Positions 35,253 to 41,296 of a stretch of DNA of 42,510 bases are shown in pieces (position 1 is the first letter of the stretch; every line of letters starts with the position of its first letter). The translations under genes were made by a program, and so were the position numbers. The stretch spans positions 1 to 42,510 of the forward strand of contig JAFGHB010000083.1 of NCBI GenBank assembly GCA_016930255.1. The letters run 5' to 3'. This stretch comes from Methanomicrobia archaeon. Its GTDB lineage: Archaea; Halobacteriota; Syntropharchaeia; Alkanophagales; Methanospirareceae. Below the pieces are notes generated by a model, which had not been told where the DNA came from, ran no database searches, and saw only the letters and a program-made list of their open reading frames with translations.

Positions 35253-35510
35253 GCGGTGAGCAAACTTGCCAGCGCACTTTCGAACTTTGAACCGGCAACA
35301 CTGGAGCACGAGCCGGATGAGGCAAAAGATCTGCTCAAGCGGTTGTATCAATATCTCGTTCCGAAGAAGATACGGCACGATTTAGGCGAGTATTACACCC
35401 CGATTGGCTTGCTGAACTCGTCATTTCGGAAGTCGGGTACGATGGCAACGTGGATAAACGGTTCCTTGATCCTGCGTGTGGCAGTGGCACTTTTTTGGTA
35501 CTTGCAATAA
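35253..35510 (+). pseudogene. Restriction-modification protein, third segment (1-nt frameshift)
   Basis: Same frame again: AVSKLASALSNFEP, DLLKRLYQYLVPKKIRHDLG and EYYTP, the linker that precedes the methyltransferase domain. After EYYTP the frame becomes nonsense (IGLLNSSFRK). Adding one G near 35403 restores PDWLAELVISEVGYDGNVD and joins the next segment. So a single-base deletion separates it from the catalytic part. Confidence 0.75.
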
Positions 35511-37300
35511 AGAGAGCACGGCGATATGCACTTGACCATTTTAGGGACGAAACAGAAACGTTGGAAGGGATATTGAAGAACGTCGTGGGTTTCGACTTGA
35601 ATCCCTTAGCGGTGCTGGCCGCGAGAACGAATTACCTCATTGCGTTGGGCAAGCTGATAAAATACAAGCGAGGCGAAATTGAAATCCCGGTTTATTTTGC
35701 GGATTCCATTCTCGTGGACCGAAAGCCAACGGTCTATGGAGTTACGCAACGGCTCATAACAGAAGCAGGAGAGTTCCAGATACCGACAAGCGTCGTGAGA
35801 AAAGGGCTCTTACCGAAAATACTCGCAGTGGTAGAGGATTGTGTGAAGACGCCGGAGTGCACAGAGGAGATCTTTGAGGAACGGGTGAAGCGCGAGGCAT
35901 CGAGGGCTGGAGCAACACTGAACAAGAACGAGCTCTATGTTTTGGACGGACTTTTCCACCAAATCGCAGATCTGGAGAAAGATGGAAAGAACAGAATATG
36001 GACTAGAATCTTGAAGAATTCTTTTGCTCCCTTGCTCCAAGATAAGTTCGATTTTGTTGTTGGGAATCCCCCGTGGGTGAACTGGGAGAGTTTGCCTAAA
36101 AATTACAGAAATGGAACAAAAGACCTGTGGGAAGATTATAAGCTCTTCACGTTGAGTGGCATGGAGGCACGACTTGGCGGCGGTAAGAAAGATATTGCTA
36201 TACTCTTTACATATCGATGTCTGGACCGTTATTTGAAAGAGCGGGGCAATTTTGCCTTTTTAATAACACAGACAGTATTCAAGACGAAAGGCGCGGAGGA
36301 AGGATTTAGAAGGTTCAAAATAAAAAATGAGCCGATTAATGTGGTAAAAGTCCACGATCTGGTGGAACTCAATCCATTTGAAGGTGCGAGCAACAGAACA
36401 GCGGCAATTTTCATCAAGAAGAAAGGAGAGACTACCTATCCCGTAAAGTATGAATTATGGAAGCGCAAGAAGAAAGCGAGAATAGACCTGAAGGATAGCC
36501 TGGAGGGGGCGTCTGAGAAGAGTTATAGGATAGAACTTTGTGCTTATCCGTCGGATGAAGAGAATATACTTTCTCCGTGGTTAACGCTGCCGGAAGATAC
36601 TTTTGATGCCGTAAATAAAATGAAAGGCTCGTGCCCCTATCGGGCATATGAAGGAATTAACACCGGAGGTGCAAATGCGGTTTATCGGCTGAATATTTTA
36701 GGTGTTGCGTCTCAGAGGAAAGATGAAATAGAGATTCCTGCTTATTTAAGGAATATTCTAGGATTTAAAGGAGAGGATGTTGAGATAAAAGATATTGTAA
36801 TTGAAAATCTAATCACAAACAAATTAAAGAAAGAGGTGGAATCGGTTAAAACCGCTATAGAGGACTTCTTCATTTATCCACTGATATCAAAACAACATCT
36901 CAGAAAATGGAAAATACAGGGTTATATTTATACTTTGCAGATGCAAGATCCAAAGAAGAGAGTCGGTTATGACGTAAGCTGGGTAAAGGTCAATTTTCCA
37001 AAGACGTACCGGTATCTCAAGGGGTTTGAGAAAATACTCAAAGAGCGTGCTGCTTACATGAAATATCTAGAAAAAGCACCAGTTTATAGCATGTTTAACC
37101 TTGGCGAATACACATTTAGCCCCTACAAAGTCGTATGGAATCGGATAGGAAACAAATTGGAAGCTTGTGTGATAAGCTCAATGAATGACGAAATTTTGGG
37201 TGAAAAATTGGTATTACCAGAAGAACATCTAATATTTATTCCTACAGAAAAGGAAGTAGAAGCACATTTCCTTTGCGCGCTCATGAATTGCACGATTTTC
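35450..37300 (+). pseudogene. Restriction-modification N6-adenine methyltransferase domain, C-terminally truncated
   Basis: Catalytic part of an Eco57I-like (type IIG) restriction-methylation protein. Motif I is FLDPACGSGTFL near 35465-35500. Motif IV is GNPPWVNW near 36063, a gamma-class N6-adenine signature. A target-recognition-like region with YEGINTGGANAVYRL follows. Homology continues to EVEAHFLCALMNCTI (to about 37297) and then stops. The formal ORF runs on to 37435 only because it reads the antisense of a RecQ fragment. With two in-frame stops, a frameshift upstream and a missing C terminus, the enzyme cannot be made as one chain, though this domain alone has over 600 open codons. Confidence 0.8.
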
Positions 37301-37590
37301 TTCTTTTGTTGCTCGCTATTAACACACTCGGCAGAAATACCCAAAGATTTGAGCTGCTGGATTTGGTCACGCATTAAGGCAATAAGGGGAGAAAATACCA
37401 CGGTTAAACCGTCGAATACGATTGCGGGAAATTGATAACAAAGCGACTTCCCAAAACCGGTTCGGTGTATTAGCAGTATCCGTTGCCCGTTAAGTAGACT
37501 CGCAACTGTTTCCCATTGTTCATCATAAAACCGATTTAACCTGAAACGTATTCGCAATAAATCCTCAGCCTGATTTCGCGTTAGAGCCAT
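37300..37590 (-). pseudogene. RecQ-like helicase N-terminal fragment
   Basis: From ATG 37590 (with AAGGAG eight bases upstream and a TATA box ATTTATAAG near 37643-37651) it reads RFYDEQWETVASLLNG, the Walker A region HRTGFGKSLCYQFPA, then VVFSPLIALMRDQIQQL and LGISAECVNSE. This is the start of a RecQ-family superfamily 2 helicase. Motif I has TGFGKS where TGGGKS is usual. Homology ends after about 95 codons at the junction near 37300. The rest of the ORF to 37123 is antisense of the methyltransferase gene. The DEAH box and helicase C domain are missing. Confidence 0.78.
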
Positions 37591-37810: not shown

Positions 37811-37851
37811 AGTATTAAAACTTAGGTGCCAAACTATACTAAAACAGTATA
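37811..37851 (+). promoter_or_regulatory. NifU-like gene promoter with inverted repeat at the start site
   Basis: TATA-like AGTATTAAAAC at 37811-37821 lies about 35 nt before ATG 37853. The inverted repeat TATACT-AAAAC-AGTATA (37835-37851) fills the space up to the start codon. A protein bound here would cover the transcription start, so it is a candidate repressor site. Confidence 0.45.
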
Positions 37852-37852
37852 A

Positions 37853-38311
37853 ATGAGCAAAAGACGGAAACCGAAGACGTTCGAAGAGATGGTAACGGAG
37901 CTGGAGGAGAAGATACGAGAGGAAGAGCGAGGGTATTACGGCGAACGGATGGTTGAAGAAGCGTTAAAGCCGAAGAACGTTGGCGAGCTGGAGCAGCCCG
38001 ACGGCGCTGCCAGCATAACGGACTCCGAGGGGGATACCATGCAGATACACCTGCGCATTGACGGAAATATGATCACGGATAGCAAATTCATCACCGAAGC
38101 TCACGGTCCCGTCATTGCGTTTGGCAGCGTGGTCACGGAACTGGTAAAGGGCAAGACTGTTGACGAGGCTGCTGAACTAGGAGAGGATGCAGTTGTGGCG
38201 GTTCTCGGCGGTTTACCGGAGGATGACCCGCATACACCGGAGCTTGCCGTTCGTACGCTCAGAGCAGCGCTGGACGATTACAAGAAGAAGCAAGAGGGGC
38301 ATCAGAAATAG
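37853..38311 (+). CDS. NifU/IscU-like protein lacking the three cluster-ligand cysteines
   Basis: This 152-residue protein has an N-terminal extension of about 27 charged residues followed by the NifU-N/IscU fold: GERMVEEALKPKNVGELEQPDG, then a GD-TMQIHLRIDG strand, ITDSKF, and TELVKGKTVDEA. In true scaffolds the ligands are NPxCGD, GCGAA and HCS. Here these read TDSEGD (Glu59), EAHGPV (His84) and PHTPEL (Thr128). The chain contains no cysteine at all. It therefore cannot hold a cluster in the usual way and may bind another metal or act as a partner or regulator. No iscS is near. Length and frame are intact. Confidence 0.8.
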   Translation: MSKRRKPKTFEEMVTELEEKIREEERGYYGERMVEEALKPKNVGELEQPDGAASITDSEGDTMQIHLRIDGNMITDSKFITEAHGPVIAFGSVVTELVKGKTVDEAAELGEDAVVAVLGGLPEDDPHTPELAVRTLRAALDDYKKKQEGHQK

Positions 38312-38403: not shown

Positions 38404-39123
38404 ATGCCCTTATCTAAAAAGACATTCATTCTAGGCTTGACACTCGTTTTAGTGGTTGCTAGCGCAGCTGCGTACACACAAACACCCGACGACAACACCA
38501 CAAAACAGAAAGTAAAAGCGGGGGCCTCATCAATCTTATCTGGAATACCTGGTATTGGCAAGTATTTTGGAGACACCGACGGCGACGGAATCGTTGATGC
38601 CAAAGACCCACACCCGTACGACCACGAGTTCCCAGCCACAGCCTACGCCGAAGAAAAGGGTCTTCCCCAAGATATAGTTGACCAGTTATCCCCCCTAAAC
38701 AGCGGTCCCGATGGAGTGTCCCTGTTAGACACCAACGAGAAGTCCTTCATAAATTGCCTTTCGGGATTGGATTATACCCAGCAAATAGAACTTGTCAAAT
38801 TGGCAAGTGATGGGAAAATAACAAATAATGACCTTGTTCTCCCAGATTATATTAAATCCTTAGATCCGGTTTTAGCCAATAAAATTCTGTCAGCATTTTC
38901 GACATATATATCGACAGGAGATATCCCCGGAGAAGCCGCAGACCAAATACAGTTCTTAAAGGGCCTCCCCGCAGAGAAACAATTGGAATTAATTGAAATT
39001 GGATTGGCAACAAACTATGATTTAGACGGTGACGGGATGAATAATTATTTTGAGGCAAATTACGGTTTTTATAATCCTCTCGTTTATAACGGCAGATATG
39101 TTATTTTATTACATGAATGGTAA
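38404..39123 (+). CDS. Secreted clan-CD peptidase-like protein, N-terminal part (ended by in-frame TAA)
   Basis: 239 codons. A signal peptide is evident (KKTFILGLTLVLVVASAAAY, residues about 5-24). Then a calcium-binding thrombospondin-3/EF-type repeat DTDGDGIVDAKDPHPYDHEF (58-77), a helical middle, and a second DLDGDGMNNYFEANYG (about 212-227). It ends YNGRYVILLHEW then TAA at 39121-39123, exactly where the peptidase domain should begin. The same frame then stays open for 229 more codons. A TATA-like TTTTTAAATACC about 29 nt and AAGGATGA about 5 nt before ATG 38404 support expression. AT-rich compared with its neighbours. Confidence 0.7.
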   Translation: MPLSKKTFILGLTLVLVVASAAAYTQTPDDNTTKQKVKAGASSILSGIPGIGKYFGDTDGDGIVDAKDPHPYDHEFPATAYAEEKGLPQDIVDQLSPLNSGPDGVSLLDTNEKSFINCLSGLDYTQQIELVKLASDGKITNNDLVLPDYIKSLDPVLANKILSAFSTYISTGDIPGEAADQIQFLKGLPAEKQLELIEIGLATNYDLDGDGMNNYFEANYGFYNPLVYNGRYVILLHEW

Positions 39124-39810
39124 GAAGATATCAATACAAAAATACATGCGGACATGTACAACTTTTTTGCTGTAAAACAAAAAATTCCACCTGAAAATGT
39201 GATAGAATTGTATGATGAGGAAGCTACTTCACAGAATTTACAAAACGCAGTTCAGAAAATCGCCGGAAAGGCTGACGATAATTCTCTGGTTTATGTTTAT
39301 CTTGATGGTCATAGTGGAACAGGATATATAAAACTGGCTGACAGAAGAACACCTTATGAAGAAATTGACGGAGGGCTGGATGAAATTAATGCGGGTCTGG
39401 TAATTGTGAATCCGGATGGTTGTAAAAGTGGTAGTGCAATTGAACCAATGAAAGAAGGACCCTGCCCGAGAATTGTTATAACTATGACAGATGCAGAAAC
39501 AAACACTGGGGGTTGTGTTACCAGCAATATTGCTCATTTAGTGGGTTGTGATATTGAAGAGAGAAGACAGCATTTTTATAATTTCCCTAAGGGACCGGAC
39601 TATCATCTTAAACAGGAGCTGAGATTCATTAAAGATTATGATACTAATCACGACGGCTATTTTTCTTTAGGAGAAGCCAGAGGTTTTGTATTATACCAAA
39701 ATCCTGATTCCCAGCTAAGCGACCCCCTAAATTTAGCTCCAGAGGTATATATCGGTGACTGGAGAGTTTATAGGCCAGAAACAATTGAAAACTTATTATA
39801 TACAGAATAA
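39124..39810 (+). CDS. Legumain/caspase-like (clan CD, C13-like) peptidase domain, in frame after TAA
   Basis: Continuous in frame with the upstream part. If translated separately it would start at ATG 39154 and have no signal peptide. The clan-CD dyad is visible: His in LVYVYLDGHSGTG and Cys in IVNPDGCKSGSAIEP. KIPPENVIELYDEEAT precedes it, as in C13 peptidases. A third calcium loop, DTNHDGYFSLGEARGFVLY, follows near the C terminus. The domain is intact. Either the TAA is a recent mutation or sequencing error, or the two halves are made apart. Likely extracellular or cell-surface. Confidence 0.7.
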   Translation, partial: EDINTKIHADMYNFFAVKQKIPPENVIELYDEEATSQNLQNAVQKIAGKADDNSLVYVYLDGHSGTGYIKLADRRTPYEEIDGGLDEINAGLVIVNPDGCKSGSAIEPMKEGPCPRIVITMTDAETNTGGCVTSNIAHLVGCDIEERRQHFYNFPKGPDYHLKQELRFIKDYDTNHDGYFSLGEARGFVLYQNPDSQLSDPLNLAPEVYIGDWRVYRPETIENLLYTE

Positions 39811-39816
39811 ATATTT

Positions 39817-39990
39817 ATGGACACCATTGAGAAATGGATTAGAAAACAGTTGGAAGAAGGCTACGCTCCTGAACAAATCAAAATCTCGCTTCAGAAATCC
39901 GGTTACGACCCTGCAATCGTTGATAAAATTTTAAATATAGCCACTCGCAGAATGAAGGTTAGACTTTCACCCGCATCCAGTGACCTTTAA
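39817..39990 (+). CDS. Short helical protein with UBA-like repeat
   Basis: This 57-codon ORF, MDTIEKWIRKQLEEGYAPEQ then KISLQKSGYDPAIVDKIL, shows a motif common at the ends of archaeal membrane or regulatory proteins (EEGYxxEQIKxSLxKxGYDPxxVDKIL). It starts 6 nt after the peptidase stop. Its last 11 or so codons overlap the end of the MATE gene on the other strand and look unrelated, so the true C terminus may have been lost. Function unknown. Confidence 0.5.
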   Translation: MDTIEKWIRKQLEEGYAPEQIKISLQKSGYDPAIVDKILNIATRRMKVRLSPASSDL

Positions 39991-41296
39991 GGAACACGAC
40001 GTAGATGACGATCGCCCTCAAGAATGTCTCAACGGCCATGCCCAGCCAGATGCCGAAGAGGCCCATACCCAACCAAAACCCGAACGCATAGGCGAGCGAT
40101 AGTCGAATGACGATGAGGCTGATGAAATTGACGTACATTGGCACTTTGGTGTAGCCCGCGCCGCGCATACCGCCGGCGAGCGTGAAGAATGCACCTAACG
40201 CGGGCTCGGAGAAGCCGATAATGAAGAGGTAGAGCGCTGCCAGGCTCATAACCTCCTTATTACCCGTAAATACCAGTGCGATATAGTCAGGCAGGAGTAT
40301 GAAGAGTAAACCCGCAAGGGTCATGAAGATCAGACAAAGGTAGGTAGAAGCGAGCACGACCTTCTTCGCCTGCGCCTCGTCCTTTGCGCCCAGGCACTGA
40401 CCGGCAAGCGTGGTAGCCGCGATGCCAAAGGCAAACGCAGGCATATATGCAACACTCTCCGCACGCAGCCCGATCTGGAATGCGGAGTAGCCAACCGTCC
40501 CAAAGGAGAGTATCATCACGGTGAAGATGATGGACGCAACGCTCCACATCGCCATGTCAATACCCGCAGGGATGCCGATCTTGAACATCTTCTTTACGGT
40601 ATCGAGCCGGTAAGTGATGTCCCTGCGGTAAACCGGATGCGTTATCAGCTTGTGGCTGGCTTGGAGCACCAGATAGACCGCAAAGGCGACGACGTATGAC
40701 GTGCCAGTGGCGATGCCCGCGCCGAGCACGCCGAGTTCCGGGAAGCCGAACTTGCCGAAGATGAGCACGTAATTCATCACGACATTGTAGACGTTTGCAA
40801 CGATATCAACGTACATCGGCGTTTTCGTATCGCCCGCAGCCCGTAAGATACCGTGATACACGATAATGAGCGCGACGAAGGGGTAAAAGGCGAAGATAGC
40901 CCGTATGTATCGCGTGCCTTCGGTTATGACGGCGCCGCGAGCACCGAGATAGTAGATCGCGGAGGGACCGGCGAAGATGCCGAATAGCGTTATCGGTATC
41001 GAGATCAAAATGAGCGTGATCACCGAATCGGTTGCCACACGCTGGGCTTCTGCATAATCCGACTCGCCCCAGCGTCGTGCTATTATTGCGATCGTGCCGG
41101 TAACGAGCCCCATGGTAAGCGGGAAGAACATGTGATACAGCGTGAAACCGAGCCCAACCGCACTCAAACTGATATCCGCCGGCGGATACCGGCCAAGCAT
41201 AATGGTATCCGCAATGATCTGAAAGGTCATGAGGATATTGGATACGAGCGCAGGCAGTGCAAGGGTCATCACCCGCTTGTAGATCGCCCTGTCCAT
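39959..41296 (-). CDS. MATE-family multidrug/Na+ efflux transporter
   Basis: This 445-residue membrane protein has twelve predicted helices in two homologous halves. MATE features: VMTLALPALVSNILMTFQIIADTIMLGRY at the start, GTIAIIARRWGESDYAEAQ after helix 3, YHGILRAAGDTKTPMYVDI in the first half and LAGGMRGAGYTKVPMYVN in the second. Such proteins export cationic or hydrophobic compounds using Na+ or H+. GGAAAGAC just before ATG 41296 acts as ribosome site. The substrate is not predictable. Confidence 0.92.
   Translation of the reverse strand: MDRAIYKRVMTLALPALVSNILMTFQIIADTIMLGRYPPADISLSAVGLGFTLYHMFFPLTMGLVTGTIAIIARRWGESDYAEAQRVATDSVITLILISIPITLFGIFAGPSAIYYLGARGAVITEGTRYIRAIFAFYPFVALIIVYHGILRAAGDTKTPMYVDIVANVYNVVMNYVLIFGKFGFPELGVLGAGIATGTSYVVAFAVYLVLQASHKLITHPVYRRDITYRLDTVKKMFKIGIPAGIDMAMWSVASIIFTVMILSFGTVGYSAFQIGLRAESVAYMPAFAFGIAATTLAGQCLGAKDEAQAKKVVLASTYLCLIFMTLAGLLFILLPDYIALVFTGNKEVMSLAALYLFIIGFSEPALGAFFTLAGGMRGAGYTKVPMYVNFISLIVIRLSLAYAFGFWLGMGLFGIWLGMAVETFLRAIVIYVVFLKGHWMRVKV

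Follow-up and report, generated by a model that had tools for sequence, protein, structure and literature searches.

A gene in the window (the whole stretch of 42,510 nucleotides that was analysed) encodes a protein of the NifU/IscU fold that lacks all three cysteine ligands and appears to be a real, selected, cluster-less paralog within this known fold family. Its orthologs form a clade in two genera which, judged from substitutions and alignment columns, is under purifying selection, with most conserved non-ligand residues kept and the metal site abandoned. We favor, with a probability of roughly 0.55, the reading that these proteins are cluster-less “pseudo-scaffolds” derived from the archaeal NifU/IscU scaffold and retained for protein-protein contacts. 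IscU/NifU proteins are among the most conserved cofactor-assembly proteins, and their three cysteines are regarded as essential. A lineage that has lost the site yet retains the IscU fold offers a naturally occurring uncoupling of “cluster holding” from “partner binding.” Annotation by NifU_N alone will mislabel such proteins as Fe-S scaffolds, and searches of the open-access literature yielded no description of a Cys-less IscU/NifU paralog. Hereafter, A-type denotes the Cys-less orthologs and B-type the Cys-bearing NifU paralogs that share their N-terminal helix.

The window frame is unbroken from its ATG start to its TAG stop, and the product contains no Cys (Table 1). The absence of Cys from 152 residues is unremarkable alone; the significant point is the loss at three otherwise invariant ligand positions. 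In an alignment with 37 Cys-bearing relatives, Glu59, His84, and Thr128 fall exactly on the three invariant Cys columns, which confirms the substitutions proposed in the initial annotation. In E. coli IscU, the [2Fe-2S] cluster is held by C37, C63, and C106, with D39 and possibly also H105 as the fourth ligand (PMC13423590). The window protein has the scaffold Asp of the CGD motif (D61) and the His before Cys-3 (H127), which are present in six and four of the nine full-length A-type proteins, respectively, and it retains the PKNVG and LP motifs. Pfam NifU_N matches residues 29-148 (E=3.9e-22) with 79.2 bits, above the curated cut-off of 22. The scores lie far below the cut-offs of the NCBIfam equivalogs NifU_clost (98.7 bits; cut-off 187.9) and IscU (58.7 bits; cut-off 192.4), and the SufU model TIGR01994 is matched weakly (34 bits; cut-off 92.5).

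Table 1 Features of the A-type locus in the window
Feature	Position	Strand	Basis
Palindrome TATACT-AAAAC-AGTATA just before ATG	37835..37851	+	Chance level
NifU_N/IscU-fold protein without Cys (A-type), 152 aa	37853..38311	+	ORF, Pfam, structure
N-terminal helix, residues 10-29	37880..37939	+	Alignment; AlphaFold model helix H10-29
Ex-Cys-1 loop, residues 57-61, D-S-E-G-D (relatives G-P-C-G-D)	38021..38035	+	Alignment
Ex-Cys-2 loop, residues 82-86, E-A-H-G-P (relatives D-G-C-G-A/P)	38096..38110	+	Alignment
Ex-His-Cys-3 site, residues 127-129, H-T-P (relatives H-C-x)	38231..38239	+	Alignment
MATE transporter, convergent, downstream of A-type	39959..41296	-	Pfam MatE; synteny

An AlphaFold model based on a 27-row alignment has a mean pLDDT of 89 and consists of the N-terminal helix followed by the IscU fold. 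Its best PDB matches are all IscU, namely that of Methanothrix thermoacetophila (7c8m; E=1.2e-12, TM 0.90 by target length, rmsd 1.5) and that of A. fulgidus from the IscS-IscU complex (4eb5). These two archaeal proteins are the closest solved structures, with TM 0.85-0.90 by target length and 35-37% identity by structural alignment; unlike them, A-type lacks the three Cys ligands and, variably, the Asp and His, and has the extra N-terminal helix. Frame, Pfam match, and model together bear out the initial description of an intact gene for an IscU/NifU-fold protein without Cys, whose fold is kept despite the ligand changes. The helix is common to A-type and B-type proteins and absent from canonical IscU in the alignment, and its residues F10, L17, E18, I21, and E25 are invariant in A-type.

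Within one archaeal family (51 genomes), two genera carry nine full-length A-type orthologs between them, six in genus g1 (G000, which is the window's own genome and 95% complete, G001, G002, G004, G005, and G006) and three in genus g4 (G010, G022, and G059). Another A-type copy, the tenth, lies on a contig of G019 (genus g13) and has lost 40 residues in frame; this contig may be misbinned, since the hisS that it carries shares 92% identity with the G002 gene. Every one of the nine proteins has none of the three Cys ligands of a functional scaffold; a single Cys occurs at position 90 in five of them. Profile searches across the class (58 genomes) and the phylum (394 genomes) returned no further A-type protein, and in both the scores are separated by a gap (241-274 bits for A-type, at most 220 bits for all others). 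Among the best remaining or fragmentary matches, 15 regions were inspected and the Cys are kept wherever the ligand sites are covered, truncated or broken copies excepted; the best matches inspected from other families have all three. A single-protein query of genome contigs returned canonical NifU only.

In the tree, A-type proteins form one clade (support 100/99). The clade survives removal of the ligand and neighboring columns (support 99/91, in 100% of bootstrap trees), which rules out that the grouping is an artefact of the shared ligand changes. A-type and B-type are nearest relatives (support 85/77). As reconstructed from these sequences, A-type is shown to derive by a single event from the B-type family, whose members bear the Cys and the N-terminal helix. 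The initial annotation had regarded close relatives that keep the cysteines as the mark of a single degenerate gene; such relatives exist as paralogs only, and no full-length ortholog carries any ligand Cys, so that a lone degenerate gene is ruled out by the orthologous clade.

To describe the residue loss, the 30 columns that are at least 95% invariant among 37 B-type proteins were taken as reference; the Cys at all three ligand sites are present in 37 of 37. A-type gives up eight of the 30 (C59, D61, C84, H127, and C128, together with N39, G57, and G83). All five cluster-site columns are thus among the losses, 22 of the 25 other columns are kept (hypergeometric p=4e-4), and two of the three non-cluster losses adjoin ligands. 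Residues newly fixed in A-type are G30, D57 (8/9), P86 (8/9), and P129 (9/9), the last three of which flank the former cluster site. Pairwise dN/dS (NG86) is 0.13-0.34 within A-type for the pairs compared, overlapping the range of 0.12-0.56 in Cys-bearing pairs, and the nine full-length frames persist over pairs with dS up to about 1.9. The pattern reads as one function lost and the remainder retained, not as general decay; the fold by itself might account for the conserved non-ligand residues. The claim that the gene is selected and not decayed is upheld by the two-genus clade, the low dN/dS, the kept fold residues, and the confinement of the loss to the cluster site.

In seven genomes (G001, G002, G004, G010, G019, G022, and G059), the A-type gene is the next gene after hisS, with both on one strand of a single contig, and in an eighth, G005, the ends of two contigs are compatible with that arrangement. 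The spacing ranges from an ATGA start-stop overlap (G002 and G019) through a gap of ~8 bp (G004) up to ~60 bp. The link is broken in the window genome and in G006, where hisS is found on a different contig and is followed by other genes, and a recQ-like gene stands upstream of A-type. Since A-type is kept in the window genome though hisS is elsewhere, the gene has survived the loss of its operon. A convergent MATE gene follows A-type in most genomes, including the window, and marks the orthologous locus. G000 and G006 share an unrelated hisS follower (METGDYPNW... in L149 of G000:C67; MEMRDYPYW... in L150 of G006:C2); their A-type proteins are not nearest relatives, which suggests an insertion or exchange in common at the hisS spot. 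The promoter palindrome, which had been taken as a sign of selection, does not bear that reading: when sequence is shuffled, 13% of 60-bp stretches and 48% of 200-bp stretches contain an inverted repeat of this length or more, and A-type orthologs, most of which directly follow hisS, have no counterpart. A palindromic operator was accordingly rejected as chance-level and lineage-specific.

The window genome holds two more NifU copies. The B-type gene (L076, G000:C5:6964-7395) encodes a protein 55-56% identical to the window protein with all Cys, and it is grouped with NifX-like and MinD/Mrp-like genes; the canonical NifU is on C76, with a NifS-type desulfurase ~2 kb away, and C64 carries another desulfurase, of SufS type (the NifX-like, MinD/Mrp, and desulfurase names come from sequence reading and a PF00266 search, not from a per-gene family scan). 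Therefore, possible partners of A-type exist in this genome. As the nearest clade, B-type has the same N-terminal helix; unlike A-type, it keeps C59, D61, C84, H127, and C128 (37/37 sampled) and stands in the NifX-like/MinD/Mrp group, not after hisS. Two damaged copies were also seen. L066 (3593-3985, G065:C83) is a B-type copy in which a 34-residue in-frame deletion removes Cys-1 and Cys-2; “GAS” stands at both edges, and recombination across this short repeat is a possible origin. In a sister family, L173 (G036:C43:7161-7307) is a NifU-like fragment broken by in-frame stops, with GH-T and VH-P in place of the usual ligand-site residues; it may be a degenerate copy.

These data bear on several other explanations. 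A slowly decaying duplicate, whose function went with its cysteines and which persists by chance or by operon position, would fit the G019 deletion and the long window and G004 branches, because of which constraint on A-type cannot be called uniformly tight; A-type was also not found in two of the eight genomes of one genus and one of the four of the other, all incomplete assemblies. Nevertheless, long-lived frames with low dN/dS, loss confined to the cluster site, newly fixed residues including Pro129, and survival of the window copy apart from hisS make decay decidedly unlikely. A scaffold for another metal, with Glu/His/Asp/Thr ligands, is suggested by Glu59, Asp61, His84, and His127 of the window copy, by Asp57 in eight of the nine A-type proteins, and by Ser/Thr at position 128 in all nine, the sole consistent replacement. 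Yet the other positions vary even among close orthologs, which have no ligand set in common: 59 is E/H/K, 84 is R/H/G/Y, 61 is D/N/H, and 127 is H/Y/S, so that Lys, Arg, Gly, and Tyr all occur. B-type shows no variation at columns 59, 84, and 127, yet in A-type they stand 23rd, 9th, and 18th in variability among 117 core columns, which makes a Glu/His/Asp metal site common to the clade unlikely. Of the Glu/His/Thr set whose conservation the initial annotation proposed as a check, only the last position holds, as Ser/Thr, and 59 and 84 vary; its suggestion of a different metal is accordingly not supported, alternative ligands were rejected, and we consider this the least probable explanation.

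The position after hisS, with overlapping or closely spaced frames in some genomes, raises the question whether the protein serves histidyl-tRNA synthetase or its operon in a way unrelated to Fe-S, e.g., as a stability or regulatory subunit for which the IscU fold is a frame only. We regard this as unlikely, since the window genome and G006 keep A-type with hisS on another contig, hisS has no A-type-like follower in the inspected genomes of other genera, and operon mates are often functionally unrelated; the hisS coupling would speak to how A-type is expressed, not to its mechanism. Permanent pairing with Cys-bearing B-type, as one half of an asymmetric oligomer, would fit the common helix, the nearest-relative placement, and the co-occurrence of both types in six genomes (G000, G001, G002, G005, G006, and G010). 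However, B-type is absent as assembled from the A-type genomes G022 (93% complete), G059 (85%), and G004 (75%), which argues against an obligate complex; joining B-type in a mixed oligomer can therefore not be all that A-type does, and we find such pairing about as improbable as decay.

We thus return to the pseudo-scaffold reading. With the fold intact and the whole cluster-holding site lost, A-type probably binds other proteins rather than building clusters. It would be unable to build or hold a [2Fe-2S] cluster as IscU does, and the reason for its retention would be that its remaining surface binds protein partners, most likely those of its Cys-bearing relatives: the cysteine desulfurase, a carrier ATPase of Mrp/MinD type, or, in a mixed oligomer, the scaffold itself. 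Such binding to the Fe-S machinery, which we infer, could tune or compete with cluster assembly, and the regulatory decoy for the desulfurase first proposed is a plausible form of it. More doubtful, though possible, is the wider proposal that A-type, co-translated with histidyl-tRNA synthetase in most carriers, regulates Fe-S assembly as an undescribed pseudo-scaffold arm of biogenesis. Pseudoenzymes and pseudo-scaffolds generally conserve fold and surface, lose catalytic or ligand residues, and originate from an active paralog, as A-type does. SufU, in the zinc-dependent sulfurtransferase branch of the same superfamily, is likewise related to IscU without being a classic scaffold, although it retains its Cys and zinc site. 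By hand alignment, we take T62 and D/E82, next to the ligands, to be the equivalents of Val72 and Phe94 of yeast Isu1; A-type keeps both columns, which makes it feasible for partners to bind when the cluster ligands are missing. In Isu1, the desulfurase and the J-protein bind overlapping surface sites that include Val72 and Phe94 (PMC6006194).

Several observations concern the host lineage and the surroundings of the gene. MCR was found in 32 of the 51 genomes of the family, across all 14 genera, and the family is consistent with an ANME-1-like lineage, a name we infer. MCR alpha had no match in the window genome and is also missing from its congeners G001 and G004; its absence from the former may be an assembly gap or a real loss. 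Upstream of A-type in the window, overlapping frames at 35256-35510 and 35450-37435 make up a split Eco57I/MmeI-type methylase, which abuts a recQ-like fragment (37123-37590, minus strand) cut by this methylase region, whereas the recQ-like gene is full length (619 aa) in G006; an insertion probably cut recQ at 35256-37590. Downstream, the reading frames 38404-39123 and 39154-39810 (plus strand) are one frame split by a single TAA at 39121-39123. With its signal peptide-like start and its DGH and C-SG motifs, 38404-39810 looks like one secreted or peptidase-like gene with a nonsense codon.
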